Shown here piece by piece: positions 43,521 to 49,261 of a DNA stretch of 53,844 nt. How positions within the stretch are numbered: the stretch's first letter is position 1; every line of letters starts with the position of its first letter. The translations under genes and the position numbers were made by a program. The stretch is from positions 1-53,844 of the IMG/VR virus record IMGVR_UViG_3300048021_000955; one strand, given 5' to 3'. The stretch is from a virus. The notes below the pieces were generated by a model. It was not told the DNA's origin and ran no database searches. It saw only the letters and a list, made by a program, of their open reading frames with translations.

Positions 43521-44124
43521 TTATTATTTGCCAGATACAGATATACACTTTGAAAAAATGATAAACAAGCGTATTAGTCAAGGCGGGCCTCCTGAATATC
43601 AAGATGATGTTAGAAACGCAGCATACAAATATGTTAAAGAATTTAATACAGCAATTGATGTTGGTGCAAATGTAGGATTATGGACTGTTCCTCTGTCAAA
43701 GAAATTTAACAAAGTAATTTCGTTTGAACCTATGGCACAAGTTTTTGAATGCTTAATAGAAAATACAACAGGTATTGAAAATGTTATTATCAATAATTTT
43801 GCACTAGGTAGTGAACAAAAAAACGTAGCTATGACTTATGATCCAAACAATACAGGAAACAGTTTTATCAACGGTAAAGAAGGCGACATTAAAGTAAAAA
43901 CACTTGATCAAAGTTTTATGCCTCCATTTGAACTAATAAAAATTGATTGCGAAAGACACGAATTAGAAGTTTTAAAGGGTGGTATAAACACTCTAAAAAA
44001 ATACAAGCCCATTGTAATAGTCGAACAACATCCTGATACAAAATACTGTGCAGGAGAATTTTTGAAATCACACGGTGCTGTTGAATTAACAAACGTTAGG
44101 AAAGATTTTATTTTTGGATGGTAA
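43504..44124 (+). CDS. FkbM-type SAM methyltransferase
   Basis: The 206-aa protein has the SAM motif IDVGANVGLW at residues 51-60, VISFEPMAQVFECL, and the FkbM signature IDCERHELEVLKGG with IVIVEQHPDT. FkbM enzymes O-methylate sugars or polyketides. Within a glycan island the probable acceptor is a sugar residue of the product. The stop codon overlaps the TTG start of the cytidylyltransferase-cupin gene. Confidence 0.8.
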   Translation: MKKVHNYYLPDTDIHFEKMINKRISQGGPPEYQDDVRNAAYKYVKEFNTAIDVGANVGLWTVPLSKKFNKVISFEPMAQVFECLIENTTGIENVIINNFALGSEQKNVAMTYDPNNTGNSFINGKEGDIKVKTLDQSFMPPFELIKIDCERHELEVLKGGINTLKKYKPIVIVEQHPDTKYCAGEFLKSHGAVELTNVRKDFIFGW

Positions 44125-44884
44125 AATTGTAATTGTAACTGGAGGATTTGATCCGTTACATAGTGGACACATTGAGTATTTTAAATCAGCACGTTCTTTG
44201 GGCGATAAATTAGTTGTAGGGCTTAATAGTGATACGTGGCTTGAGAATAAAAAAGGTCGTGCATTTATGCCGTTTGAAGAACGTGCAAATATTGTCAAAC
44301 ATCTTGAAATGGTTGACGATGTTATGCTAGTCGAAGACGACGAAACTGGCGGCACAACAAAAGCAATTGGATATCTTTTACAAACAACAACTGGTAAACT
44401 TATTGTTGCAAACGGTGGGGATAGAGTTGAAGGCGAAATTCCAGAACAAGCAACATACGGCGATCATCCAGACGTAGAGTTTGTATTTGGTGTTGGCGGC
44501 GAAGATAAAAAGAATAGTAGTAGTTGGATACTCAAAGAATGGAGTCAGCCTACTACAGAACGTGCGTGGGGCGAATACAAAATATTAGACAAAGGCAATG
44601 GCTGGCAAGTTAAACAACTTGAGTTTTATCACGGCAAAGCATTAAGTGACCAAAGACACTTTAAACGTAGTGAACACTGGCACGTTGTAGATGGAGTAAT
44701 TAATATGTTCCTAGAAGATAAGCAAGGTAATAAAACAAGCACATTGTTAGTACCAGGAGATAGTATTGACATCCCAGTAGGCTATTGGCACAAAGCTGTA
44801 AATTTAGATAATAAATCTGCAAAAGTTATTGAAGTATGGATTGGCAATAATTTAACCGAAAATGATATAGAAAGAAGAGACTAA
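44114..44884 (+). CDS. Cytidylyltransferase-cupin fusion
   Basis: The 256-aa protein fuses two enzymes. Residues 1-140 are a cytidylyltransferase-like domain: TGGFDPLHSGHIEYF with H16-x-x-H19, and a SSSWILKEW element. Residues ~145-256 are a cupin of the type II mannose-6-phosphate-isomerase kind: RAWGEYKIL, RHFKRSEHWHVVDG, PVGYWHKAVN and a closing TENDIERRD. Candidate metal ligands are H188/H190, E187 and H226. It could activate a sugar phosphate and isomerise a related one. The TTG at 44114 is the only plausible start before the active site. AGGA lies 12 bases upstream. Confidence 0.78.
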   Translation: MDGKIVIVTGGFDPLHSGHIEYFKSARSLGDKLVVGLNSDTWLENKKGRAFMPFEERANIVKHLEMVDDVMLVEDDETGGTTKAIGYLLQTTTGKLIVANGGDRVEGEIPEQATYGDHPDVEFVFGVGGEDKKNSSSWILKEWSQPTTERAWGEYKILDKGNGWQVKQLEFYHGKALSDQRHFKRSEHWHVVDGVINMFLEDKQGNKTSTLLVPGDSIDIPVGYWHKAVNLDNKSAKVIEVWIGNNLTENDIERRD

Positions 44885-46623
44885 TGACCGAACCCCTTAA
44901 AGTATTTGTAGGATGGGATAGCAGAGAAGATATTGCATTCCAAGTTTGTAAACAAAGTATTTTAGAACACGCCAGTGTACCTGTAAAAGTTATACCTTTG
45001 AAACAAGATGATTTAAGAAAAAAAGATCTCTACAATAGACCTATTGATGCACTTGCAAGTACAGAATTCACATTTACAAGATTTTTAGTTCCTTACTTAA
45101 TGGGATATCAAGGATGGGCATTGTTTATAGATTGTGATTTTGTGTTTTTAGATGATGTTAAAAAATTATTCGATCAGATTAATAACAAATATGCTGTAAT
45201 GTGTGCGCAACACGACTATACGCCCAAAGAAGGCACAAAAATGGATGGGCAAGTTCAAACAGTTTATCCACGTAAGAACTGGTCAAGTATGATGCTAATA
45301 AATTGTGGCTCTTATACAAACGGTGTATTAACCAAAGAACTTGTAAACGATCCTTTAAAAACTGGCGCATATTTTCATAGATTTAGTTGGGTGCCTGATG
45401 CCGAAGTAGGAGAATTAAGTCACGAGTGGAATTGGCTTGTAGGATGGTATAACGAACCAAAAGATGGAAGACCAAAAGCATTGCACTATACTGAAGGCGG
45501 GCCCTGGTTTAAACAATACGAAGACTGCGAGTATGCCAAGGAATGGTACAAAGCAAAAGGTAAGTACTTTGAAAACGCCTATGTACACGCAAATGCCAAA
45601 GCCTCAAGCTTAGGCGAAAAAAGAAAACGTGATAGAGAAATAGACATAAGTGAAAGAATACATCCAACAAATTTAATAATGGATGATCAAAAAAAAAAAT
45701 TAATTGAAAAATTTTTTAACTATCTTAAAGATCCAGATGGTAATTTTTACGATACAAATTTTAAGGAGGATTTAATGGCAATACGAGGTGATAGAGTAGC
45801 AGCAATCTTTCCTGATTCTGACGATGAAGATGGCAATTTTAACCCACAAAAAAAAGGATACGAGTTTGATGAATACTTAGAAGCATTAGTACAGGGCATT
45901 CCTAAAGGTATGCTTAGTACTTGGGAACAAGAAAAAACATCAAATGTTCCTTTACTTATAAGAGGCTTAGGTAAAAAGAGTCAATTAGCTATAAAAAACT
46001 GCTGGGAAAAACAACAAACATTTTATGCAATTGATAGTGGGTATTTAGGCAATGAAAGAACTAAAAGTAAAGTATGGCATCGTATAACTAAAAATGCTTT
46101 ACAAAATTTAGGACCTATCAAAGATAGAGCAAATGACAGGATGAATAAAATAGGTTACAAATACCTTAAATTTCATCCAGGAAGTAAAATATTAATTTGT
46201 CCGCCTAGTGAGAAAGTTATGAAATTTTGGGATCAACCTACACCTGAAGAATGGACACAACAAACTATTAAAGAGTTGAAACGTTACACAGACAGACCGA
46301 TTGAGGTAAGGTTAAAACCTAAACGTAACGAAAGAATAGCAGATGGTAATATTGTACACGCTTTGCAAAATGACGTACACTGTGTAGTTACATATAATAG
46401 TATTGCAGCAACTGAAGCATTACTTAATGGTAAACCTGCTATTGCTTTAGGACCCAATGCTGCAACTGTGTTATGTAATACAAGTTTATCCGAAGTTGAA
46501 AATTTAAATACTTTTGATAAATTGACAATTGAAGGATATGCTGCACATCTAACATATTGTCAATTTACAAAACAAGAAATGCAAGACGGAACGGCGTGGC
46601 GAATTTTAAATGAAAGTAGTTAA
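44884..46623 (+). CDS. Two-domain glycosyltransferase (GT-A N-terminus, GT-B-like C-terminus)
   Basis: The 579-aa protein has an N-terminal GT8-like domain (VFVGWDSREDIAFQ, FTRFLVPYLM, D83-C-D85 in FIDCDFVFL, HANAKASSLG) to about residue 250. From ~298 there is a separate domain: FYAIDSGYLG, RITKNALQNLGPIKDR, ILICPPSEKVMKFW, IEVRLKPKRNER and VVTYNSIAATEALLNGKPAIALG. The latter resembles capsule-type or CDP-glycerol-like transferases and is shared with the next two + strand genes. A consensus AAGGAGG and in-frame ATG lie at the junction (45763 and 45775), so the second half may also be made alone. Confidence 0.8.
   Translation: MTEPLKVFVGWDSREDIAFQVCKQSILEHASVPVKVIPLKQDDLRKKDLYNRPIDALASTEFTFTRFLVPYLMGYQGWALFIDCDFVFLDDVKKLFDQINNKYAVMCAQHDYTPKEGTKMDGQVQTVYPRKNWSSMMLINCGSYTNGVLTKELVNDPLKTGAYFHRFSWVPDAEVGELSHEWNWLVGWYNEPKDGRPKALHYTEGGPWFKQYEDCEYAKEWYKAKGKYFENAYVHANAKASSLGEKRKRDREIDISERIHPTNLIMDDQKKKLIEKFFNYLKDPDGNFYDTNFKEDLMAIRGDRVAAIFPDSDDEDGNFNPQKKGYEFDEYLEALVQGIPKGMLSTWEQEKTSNVPLLIRGLGKKSQLAIKNCWEKQQTFYAIDSGYLGNERTKSKVWHRITKNALQNLGPIKDRANDRMNKIGYKYLKFHPGSKILICPPSEKVMKFWDQPTPEEWTQQTIKELKRYTDRPIEVRLKPKRNERIADGNIVHALQNDVHCVVTYNSIAATEALLNGKPAIALGPNAATVLCNTSLSEVENLNTFDKLTIEGYAAHLTYCQFTKQEMQDGTAWRILNESS
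45763..45777 (+). promoter_or_regulatory. Internal Shine-Dalgarno and in-frame ATG
   Basis: AAGGAGG at 45763-45769 is one of the best ribosome-binding sites in the window and lies five bases before an in-frame ATG (codon 298 of the 579-aa gene). It falls at the domain boundary and would yield a 282-aa product. Confidence 0.6.
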
Positions 46624-47542
46624 TTATCTAACTAGTGTTCCTAGAGGTAATACCAATAAGCAAAAAGAAGAATTGCTTATGAAATTTCATAATGGTGTGC
46701 AACGTACTGGCGACGAGTCTCATTTGCATAGAGAATATTTTACCGTAGACTGCGATGCGGCACTTATACAAGGATGGGTATATAATGATACTACACCATC
46801 ACATTTAAGTTTACGCAAAAAGGTTATAGAACATCAACAAAAAACAAACAGATACACAATAGTTGCTGATGCAAATTTGTTTTTGTATGCAAATAAGATT
46901 AATCCTCAAGGCTATTTGCGTTATAGTTTGAACGGTGTTTTTCCAGATACGGGAATTTATTGTGATAATAATATTGATGAAACAAGATGGAATCAAATAT
47001 CTATCAATACAGGAATACGTTTAGAAGAAAACAAAAAAAACGGAAGTCATATTCTTATACTTTTGCAAAGACAAGGCGGCTGGAGTATGGGCGGAGAAAA
47101 CGTAATTGATTGGACAAACAAAACTATTAGACAAATTAGAAAAGCAGGATGTGATCGAATGATTAGAATCAGACCGCATCCGGGTTGTAAAAAATCTAAA
47201 CAATTTTTAAACCCAAGAACTAATCCTTTTTATAAATTAAACAAAGTTATGATATGCGATCCTGCCAACAGATTAGAAAATGACTTAAAAAATTGTTATG
47301 CAGTTGTTAATAAAAATAGTAGTGGTATAGTAGGGCCAATTATAAAAGGATATAATGCCTTTGTTACAGAGCCAAATAAAAGTCAATGTTCAGAAGTAAG
47401 CAATCATAATTTACAAGATATAGAAAACCCAAAAACTTTTGATAGATTAAAATGGTTACAAAGAATTAGTATGTTTCATTGGAATTTTAGTGAACTCGAA
47501 ACAGGACAATGCTGGAGTCATATAAAAAATTACGTCCAGTAA
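46610..47542 (+). CDS. GT-B-like transferase, paralogue 2
   Basis: The 310-aa protein shares with its neighbours the motifs ILILLQRQGGWSMGG, MIRIRPHPGCKKS, and NKNSSGIVGPIIKGYNAFVTEP, the pattern of a capsule-type GT-B nucleotide-binding half. The N-terminus has WVYNDTTPSHLSLRKKVIEH. Overlaps the preceding gene by 14 bases, and its 3' end overlaps the convergent glycosyltransferase by 13 bases. Confidence 0.6.
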   Translation: MKVVNYLTSVPRGNTNKQKEELLMKFHNGVQRTGDESHLHREYFTVDCDAALIQGWVYNDTTPSHLSLRKKVIEHQQKTNRYTIVADANLFLYANKINPQGYLRYSLNGVFPDTGIYCDNNIDETRWNQISINTGIRLEENKKNGSHILILLQRQGGWSMGGENVIDWTNKTIRQIRKAGCDRMIRIRPHPGCKKSKQFLNPRTNPFYKLNKVMICDPANRLENDLKNCYAVVNKNSSGIVGPIIKGYNAFVTEPNKSQCSEVSNHNLQDIENPKTFDRLKWLQRISMFHWNFSELETGQCWSHIKNYVQ

Positions 47543-48372
47543 CTTTCGGTTCTTTTTACCATTATATCTTTAGGTAAACTTTTACCAGTATTCTTCCTAT
47601 CACCTTTCATATGATCTATCCATCTACCAAGTTCAGTGTTAATTAACGGATGTCCACCGCCGCCAGTTTTTGCTTCTTTCAAATACATATCGGCACTATA
47701 ATCCAATACATTATTGTCAATTTTTGTTAGTTGGTTTAAAATGTGTCCAAAAACAAAACTATCGTGCCATTCTTCTAATTCAAAAATACCGTTTTCGGCT
47801 TCTTCATAAAATCTTTCAAACTCTTTTATAAATTGTATACACATTGGATGGTTTTTATTTAATCCATAAAACCCGCACTCCGGCCAAGTTTGCGAACCTT
47901 TACCTCTACCTACATATGTAATCCATTTATCGTCTGGCAACAATTTTTTAAATTGTTTGTAACTCCACTTATTATGTACAAATGTATCGGCGTCCATCCA
48001 CACACACCAATCTGTGCTTTTTTCAAATGCATCAAAAACAGCATAAACTTTGTTTGCAAAACGAATTGCATTCCATTTAAACTCTTTATGCCAATCTCTT
48101 GGTCTACGTGCTTTAATATCAGCAGGCGGTATACCATTTGCTTTTGGTATATCTTTCCAACGCTGTTTAAATTTATTTAATTTAGGAAGTTCTCTGGTTG
48201 CTTGTATTTCTATTATTTGCGATCTATTAGTTATAGCAGGAAAACAATTCTCTGCATAAACAAGTAAATTTATGTTTGGATCAACATTTTCAGCAAAACT
48301 ATCTAGGAAACGTTGTCCGTATTTGTCTAGTCCTTGTTTATGAAATGTTGTTACCACAGTTATGTTTGCCAT
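47530..48372 (-). CDS. GT-A type glycosyltransferase on minus strand
   Basis: The 280-aa protein has VWMDADTFVH with D127-A-D129, a start MANITVVTTFHKQGLDKYG, RFLDSFAENV, FKWNAIRFANKVYAV, and GFYGLNKNHPMC, HDSFVFGHIL. This is a GT-A glycosyltransferase of the kind seen in phage and LPS loci. It is the only minus-strand gene in the island; AAGGAAG precedes its ATG. Donor and acceptor unknown. It diverges from the 283-aa gene across a 37-base gap. Confidence 0.78.
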   Translation of the reverse strand: MANITVVTTFHKQGLDKYGQRFLDSFAENVDPNINLLVYAENCFPAITNRSQIIEIQATRELPKLNKFKQRWKDIPKANGIPPADIKARRPRDWHKEFKWNAIRFANKVYAVFDAFEKSTDWCVWMDADTFVHNKWSYKQFKKLLPDDKWITYVGRGKGSQTWPECGFYGLNKNHPMCIQFIKEFERFYEEAENGIFELEEWHDSFVFGHILNQLTKIDNNVLDYSADMYLKEAKTGGGGHPLINTELGRWIDHMKGDRKNTGKSLPKDIMVKRTESYWT

Positions 48373-48409: not shown

Positions 48410-49261
48410 ATGAAATTTAAATTATGGAATGAATATGGAGCAATGAATTCAAAGCCAGTATTTGATGCTTTTAAAAATAGTTTGCTTAATGCAGGACATA
48501 GTTTGTCTGACAATGATTCAATAGGCAGTGCTGATGTACACGTAATATGGAGTGTATTATTTGCCGGAAGAATGACTCCAAATAGGCATATATGGAACGT
48601 ATGTAAAAAACAAAATAAGCCTGTTATTGTACTTGAAGTAGGTGGTATAAAACGTGGAACAACTTGGAAGGTAGGACTAAATGGAATTAATCGTGACGCT
48701 TATTTTGGTGGACTTCATAATAATAGTTCTCGCGCTGATTCTCTTGGGTTATTTCTAAAACCTTGGAAGACAAGCGGAACTCATATTTTAATTTGTGGAC
48801 AACACGATAAAAGTTTACAATGGGAAAATATGCCACGTATGAGTAATTGGTTGATGAGTATAATTGACGAAATAAAAAGTTATACAGATATGCCTATTGT
48901 GTTTCGGCCACATCCTAGATGCAGATTAGAACATATAGAAAGGCAATACCAAAATGTTTATAGAGACGAACCTGTAAAACTTGATAACACATATGACGAC
49001 TTTAACCTTAGTTTCAAAGATGTTTTTGCAGTGGTTAATTGGAGTAGTAATCCCGGTGTGCAAGCAGCAATTGCAGGCATACCTGTTTTTACAGGACCGA
49101 GTAGTTTGGCTTATGAAGTAGCAAATCAAGAATTGTCGCAGATAAAAAATCCAATCACACCCGAAAGACAACAATGGTTAAATGATTATGCTTGGACAGA
49201 ATATACCATAGATGAAATAGAAAAGGGTATTCCTTTAAATAGATTGACTAATCATTTATAA
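48410..49261 (+). CDS. GT-B-like transferase, paralogue 3
   Basis: The 283-aa protein has FKLWNEYGAMNSKPVFDAF, HVIWSVLFAGRM, VIVLEVGGIKRG, HILICGQHDKSLQW, MPIVFRPHPRCRLEH, and VVNWSSNPGVQAAIAGIPVFTGPSS. The R-P-H-P-R and N-W-S-S-x-P-G-x-Q-A-A-I-A-G-I-P elements match the two preceding + strand transferases, so the three are paralogues. Such domains occur in capsule and teichoic-acid-like polymerases. Preceded by TGGAG. Confidence 0.65.
   Translation: MKFKLWNEYGAMNSKPVFDAFKNSLLNAGHSLSDNDSIGSADVHVIWSVLFAGRMTPNRHIWNVCKKQNKPVIVLEVGGIKRGTTWKVGLNGINRDAYFGGLHNNSSRADSLGLFLKPWKTSGTHILICGQHDKSLQWENMPRMSNWLMSIIDEIKSYTDMPIVFRPHPRCRLEHIERQYQNVYRDEPVKLDNTYDDFNLSFKDVFAVVNWSSNPGVQAAIAGIPVFTGPSSLAYEVANQELSQIKNPITPERQQWLNDYAWTEYTIDEIEKGIPLNRLTNHL

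Follow-up and report, generated by a model that had tools for sequence, protein, structure and literature searches.

In Citrobacter rodentium, tssM1 carries an A11 tract at which about 20% slippage occurs, and tssM3 of Yersinia pseudotuberculosis, which is in frame, shows 15-25% slippage (PMC4256274). Transcriptional slippage is also described for dnaX of Thermus thermophilus, the source of tau and gamma, where each of the two other frames holds a stop near the slip site (PMC5009743). Internal translation initiation is known from genes within genes, with RpnL/RpnS and Cas10d/Cas11d as examples (PMC10327210).

The gene considered here lies in a viral sequence of 53,844 nt (IMGVR_UViG_3300048021_000955), the whole of which was analysed and is called the window below, and encodes two putative glycosyltransferases in one reading frame (Table 1). 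It shares with tssM1 and tssM3 a poly-A tract in the coding region (A11 in tssM1), a nearby stop in another frame, in-frame and out-of-frame DNA states, and two length variants. It differs from them in that it is a phage glycosyltransferase gene, the tract lies between two enzymes and slippage is only predicted; moreover, a second Shine-Dalgarno (SD) sequence and ATG after the tract would let the C half be made alone, and the tract moves among relatives. Compared with Thermus dnaX, the gene would have a similar in-frame long product and has stops in both other frames by the proposed slip site, whereas the protein is a different one and its downstream domain has a candidate internal restart, of a kind not described for dnaX in that account. 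The likeness to RpnL/RpnS and Cas10d/Cas11d is an in-frame start within an ORF from which the C-terminal domain alone would be made; unlike those genes, the window gene adds a slippery tract, and its predicted C product is an enzyme domain rather than a small regulator. No comparable case of slippage in a phage glycosyltransferase was found in a search of the open-access literature.

We think it fairly likely that this is a slip-and-restart gene, and comparison with its relatives makes it probable that the fusion, the GT8-like half alone and the Kdo-transferase-like half alone are all made from it. The tract, the stops, the SD, the start, their conservation and the frame-split variants can be read from the DNA itself, and the mechanism would use them as follows. 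Read in frame, the gene would yield a 579-aa fusion of the GT8-like and Kdo-transferase-like enzymes. Should RNA polymerase slip on the A11 tract, the altered number of A's would lead to an immediate stop and to a GT8-like protein of 272-274 aa alone. Ribosomes may start at the internal SD and ATG on any transcript to make a 282-aa Kdo-transferase-like protein; because this start would be usable on slipped mRNAs, those mRNAs would still give both enzymes. Given the length of 10-11 A's, we infer that the slip is made by RNA polymerase, and not by the ribosome or during DNA replication. Our statements on initiation at the internal ATG, on the ratio of the products and on their substrates are predictions of the same kind, and the benefit would be to set the ratio of fused to free enzymes.

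Table 1. Features of the fused glycosyltransferase gene and its paralogues, in window coordinates.
Feature	Position	Strand	Remarks
Fused glycosyltransferase gene	44884..46623	+	ATG start, 579 aa; N and C profiles both match the ORF
N half, residues 1-231, GT8-like, GT-A fold (predicted)	44884..45576	+	PF01501, phrog_28018, Foldseek
Variable linker, residues about 232-304	45577..45795	+	helices predicted at residues 218-258 and 268-282
Run of eleven A's, A11 (Q269-K272), candidate site of slippage	45689..45699	+	75 nt before internal ATG
TAA, read in frame once one A is lost	45701..45703	+	N-only product of 272 aa
TGA, read in frame once one A is added	45705..45707	+	N-only product of 274 aa
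AAGGAGG Shine-Dalgarno	45763..45769	+	computed duplex -10.8 kcal/mol
Spacer ATTTA, 5 nt	45770-45774		between AAGGAGG and internal ATG
Internal ATG, codon 298 of the 579-aa ORF	45775..45777	+	in frame
C-only predicted product, 282 aa	45775..46623	+	from internal ATG to gene end
310-aa paralogue of C half	46610..47542	+	start overlaps 3' end of fused gene
283-aa paralogue of C half	48410..49261	+	sequence comparison

The N half matches phrog_28018 (E 1.8e-52) and PF01501 (E 2.7e-5). Like the GT8 enzymes LgtC and GlyE, it has a GT-A fold in the predicted model and a pair of aspartates, D83 and D85, that are invariant across 37 alignment rows; unlike them, its profile score is just at the Pfam cut-off (24.3 for both; 22.7 with the whole protein). 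Foldseek places GT8 and related GT-A structures (LgtC, GlyE, UGGT) among the top matches to the N half, and we predict that this half is GT8-like. The full-length model has a pLDDT of 86.6 and a pTM of 0.56. The C half alone is compact and GT-B-like in the AF2 prediction (pLDDT 87.6, pTM 0.87), which suggests that it is able to fold by itself. Its best matches among solved structures are the Kdo transferases KpsC, KrkA and WbbB (E 1.4e-5 to 6e-4), with 6mgb at the top (E 1.4e-5, TMq 0.50). However, the better matches share 10-16% identity, TMq does not exceed 0.50, and the Pfam profile Capsule_synth scores 12.9, below the cut-off of 20. Because of this last result we call the C half Kdo-transferase-like, on the strength of its predicted fold, and do not assign it to the family. 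Neither the N nor the C profile matched any solved structure when searched at the sequence level. The function may be sugar transfer, perhaps Kdo-like, onto a glycan of the phage or host surface. In Synechococcus phage S-SCSM2R, KdsB and KdsA are annotated a few genes past the N-half homologue (L004:5111-6532), which fits a link to Kdo.

The fused gene belongs to a glycosyltransferase cluster that presumably lies between uvsY-like and uvsW-like genes. Adjoining it is a TTG-start ORF (44114-44884) that is another fusion, of a cytidylyltransferase domain with a mannose-6-phosphate isomerase C-terminal (cupin) domain. A GT2-like gene of the cluster is on the opposite strand (47530-48372, - strand; PF00535 E 0.0054, below the cut-off).

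Both profiles fall on one ORF at 244 of 337 listed loci, or in 97 distinct proteins, and two further scans raise this to at least 106, each scan retaining no more than its 80 best matches out of several hundred. Many of the loci repeat one contig, and locus counts are therefore not genome counts; the window's own copies (L337 and L338) are left out of this and later counts, and L067 of the first profiles and the first SD test. The preliminary description had suggested a search for relatives with separate genes and would have taken universal fusion as evidence against its reading. Such relatives are present: in Pelagibacter phage Mosig the two halves are adjacent, overlapping genes, and Mosig-like pelagiphage loci likewise have two genes. 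The C gene of this split clade starts, in alignment, at window residue 297 (median; 10-90% range 292-302) across 77 loci, which include two copies of the frame-split contig described below as L057; split loci with a short N match or without a called C start are left out of these statistics. In most of these loci the overlap between the C start and the N stop is a few bases long, and the SD is weak (median -2.2). In the N-domain tree the fused rows form one group against the split rows with support of 90/85 (37 fused, 6 split), although the root is a midpoint, branches are long, the bootstrap is unsettled and split rows number six. Given this grouping, the fusion is old rather than recent: on the tree, it is one old clade with the split Mosig-type as its sister. 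Caulobacter phages (L002, L003) also have both halves side by side, but there the C half comes first and the N half second, and an FkbM methyltransferase follows the pair. Fused-clade genes also occur on contigs of 330 kb (L343, IMGVR_UViG_3300042564_002819) and 382 kb (L301/L403, IMGVR_UViG_3300043399_000877), and thus the family may extend beyond T4-sized phages.

Within the window, AAGGAGG occurs once on the + strand. Across the 29 + strand ORFs of at least 150 aa, each taken from its first ATG, there are 176 in-frame internal ATGs, and the one at codon 298 is the sole case with an SD duplex of -9 kcal/mol or lower; it surpasses all 29 ORF starts as well (best -10.2, median -2.8 kcal/mol). 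The SD, the spacer, the in-frame ATG and the 282-aa remainder had been reported in the preliminary description, and direct reading of the sequence confirms them. The 283- and 310-aa ORFs had also been called paralogues there, which is borne out weakly for the second half: in single comparisons, it shares 24-25% identity with the 310-aa ORF (E 3e-8) and the 283-aa ORF (E 6e-12).

The conservation of this start was judged against synonymous reshuffles that preserve the protein, using the best SD at any in-frame start per 40-residue window. With 48 representatives, the signal peaks at residues 280-319 (P 1e-12, any start). Across 53 representatives less than 80% identical, the mean best SD in the linker is -5.49 against -2.09 in the null (Fisher P 4.9e-14), and the excess holds in 38 representatives less than 70% identical (P 9.4e-9); these Fisher tests assume independence, and thinning at 80% and 70%, together with the saturation check, reduces shared ancestry without removing it. 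That check found synonymous sites near saturation among members less than 70% identical (0.684, with 0.659 expected), and therefore an unused SD should have decayed. A small hold-out of five later-added representatives gave P 0.007, with two of the five individually significant. An SD of -7 or lower is found in 16 of 53 linkers versus 4 of 530 control windows, and of -5 or lower in 26 of 53; it is only weak in about half of the representatives, and two tract-bearing loci, L301 and L405, have none in the linker test. A Met is present within residues 280-319 in 89% of 37 representatives less than 70% identical, and the internal start sits at differing alignment positions (MAIR.., MKIIQNKF.., MG.K..). 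Elsewhere in the gene, the one other spot is a much weaker SD excess before in-frame GTG/TTG at residues 60-119 (about 45061-45240; P about 1e-3, 48 representatives). Around the internal start the mRNA has less structure than it does over the gene as a whole (t 10.5), but hardly beyond the synonymous null (z 0.32, t 1.95), and we do not use this as support; nor do we use the count of G-ending codons (48/86), which carries a best-start selection bias. Judged by the reshuffles, an in-frame start with an SD at the domain boundary is under selection in the fused clade, and the internal ATG is likely to be a live second start.

No other run of A's or T's in the window reaches a length of nine besides the A11 tract, whereas a first-order model expects about 5 such runs. 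Runs of at least nine A's are present in 21 of the 53 representative genes, all at aligned residues 229-290 in four positions and 20 of them inside the 236-305 linker, with none elsewhere in these genes (26,278 codons outside the linker). Permissive sites are those whose encoded amino acids are compatible with A10 or longer; such a run is present at 19 of 22 of them in the linker, versus 0 of 64 among the 1,048 other ORFs that these loci contain (P 2.8e-16). Across the 80 fused-clade loci (831,789 bases, redundant), A/T runs that reach nine bases come to 22 distinct cases, 21 of them in the fused gene and the other at the equivalent tract site in L057, versus 52 expected by the first-order model in distinct fused-clade DNA. 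Split-clade loci have six A/T runs of at least 9, every one of length 9. Stops in both other frames follow 16 of the 21 runs versus 16 of 336 control runs, which have at least seven A's and come from other ORFs (P 4e-15). When A-run length was compared in sliding windows with synonymous codon choice alone, no significant excess appeared; the signal emerges against other genes and permissive sites. Among the matches listed, a run of nine or more A's is present in 46 of 106 distinct fused proteins and absent in 60, so slippage cannot be universal; 38 of the 46 have 10 or more A's. By these comparisons the A tract, which the preliminary description had missed, is a stronger signal than the internal start.

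In three contigs, a difference of one A from their close relatives splits the frame, although homopolymer sequencing error is possible. One of them (IMGVR 3300017763_000092; L057, L165) matches the window base for base across 11.7 kb, except that it has A10 in place of A11. As a result, its N ORF is 272 aa, the same as the product predicted from the window after loss of one A, and its C half would need the internal ATG. The other two, L343 and a 31-kb contig (L344), have A10 where L324 and L339 have A11, and are 86-90% identical to L324. Past the tract, their linker is still conserved protein in the frame of the C half, with 4-5 amino-acid changes in 31 codons, too few for a selection test.

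These one-A differences, in the 11.7-kb pair and between L343/L344 and L324/L339, would also be expected if tract length changed in the DNA at replication, so that a phase-variable population mixed fused and split genes while the internal start kept the C enzyme. Poly-A phase variation in O-antigen genes is reportedly the subject of a published study. We nevertheless consider this unlikely, given that three out-of-frame contigs, beside 46 distinct in-frame proteins with runs of nine or more, are fewer than a phase switch would be expected to produce, and that stops in two frames fit slippage at the RNA level at least as well. Ribosomal shifting requires about A7, and the 38 tract-bearing proteins with 10 or more A's go beyond this, making a slide or shift by the ribosome on these A-rich lysine codons, with the internal start still in use, an improbable alternative to slippage by RNA polymerase. 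The stops would act identically in that case, and ribosomes are reported to slide along AAA runs (PMC4363877). If instead the internal start alone were functional and the tract a by-product of a lysine-rich neutral linker, the 60 fused proteins without a long run and the flat relation of A-run length to codon usage alone would be accounted for; we doubt this reading strongly, given the excess at permissive linker sites, repeated at four positions, and the excess of two-frame stops.

The location of the SD at a domain boundary would also suit an SD-like sequence that pauses ribosomes so that the first domain folds, with the second start unused. However, the signal tested was an SD placed at the right distance from a start codon in frame, and the C genes of the split clade begin at the matching aligned residue, so that we give pausing little chance. 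The preliminary description had proposed either a relic of a recent fusion or a live second start; the conservation in the linker favours the latter, and the single old clade in the N-domain tree speaks against the former. Separate genes in Mosig-like phages would agree with a neutral relic of a recent fusion, but we regard this as very improbable, in view of the age of the clade and of conservation beyond synonymous chance. Moreover, since the C genes of the split clade mostly start in a stop-start overlap behind a weak SD, the strong SD would not be their relic.

For the slip-and-restart gene, we think the chances somewhat better than even that it represents a widespread marine phage family, in which a cassette of A10-11, two-frame stops and an SD with a start makes two glycosyltransferases in fused and free form. 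The tract would have come to occupy four or more different places along the linker with the logic of the cassette kept, and fused and split DNA states would interconvert by one A. In annotation, the split copies would be taken for broken genes, and the locus serves as a warning in this respect. If true, this would be a tailed-phage gene in which programmed slippage on an A tract is conserved and is coupled to an internal restart such that no product is lost, and it may offer a simple model of how the parts of a fused gene stay separately available.
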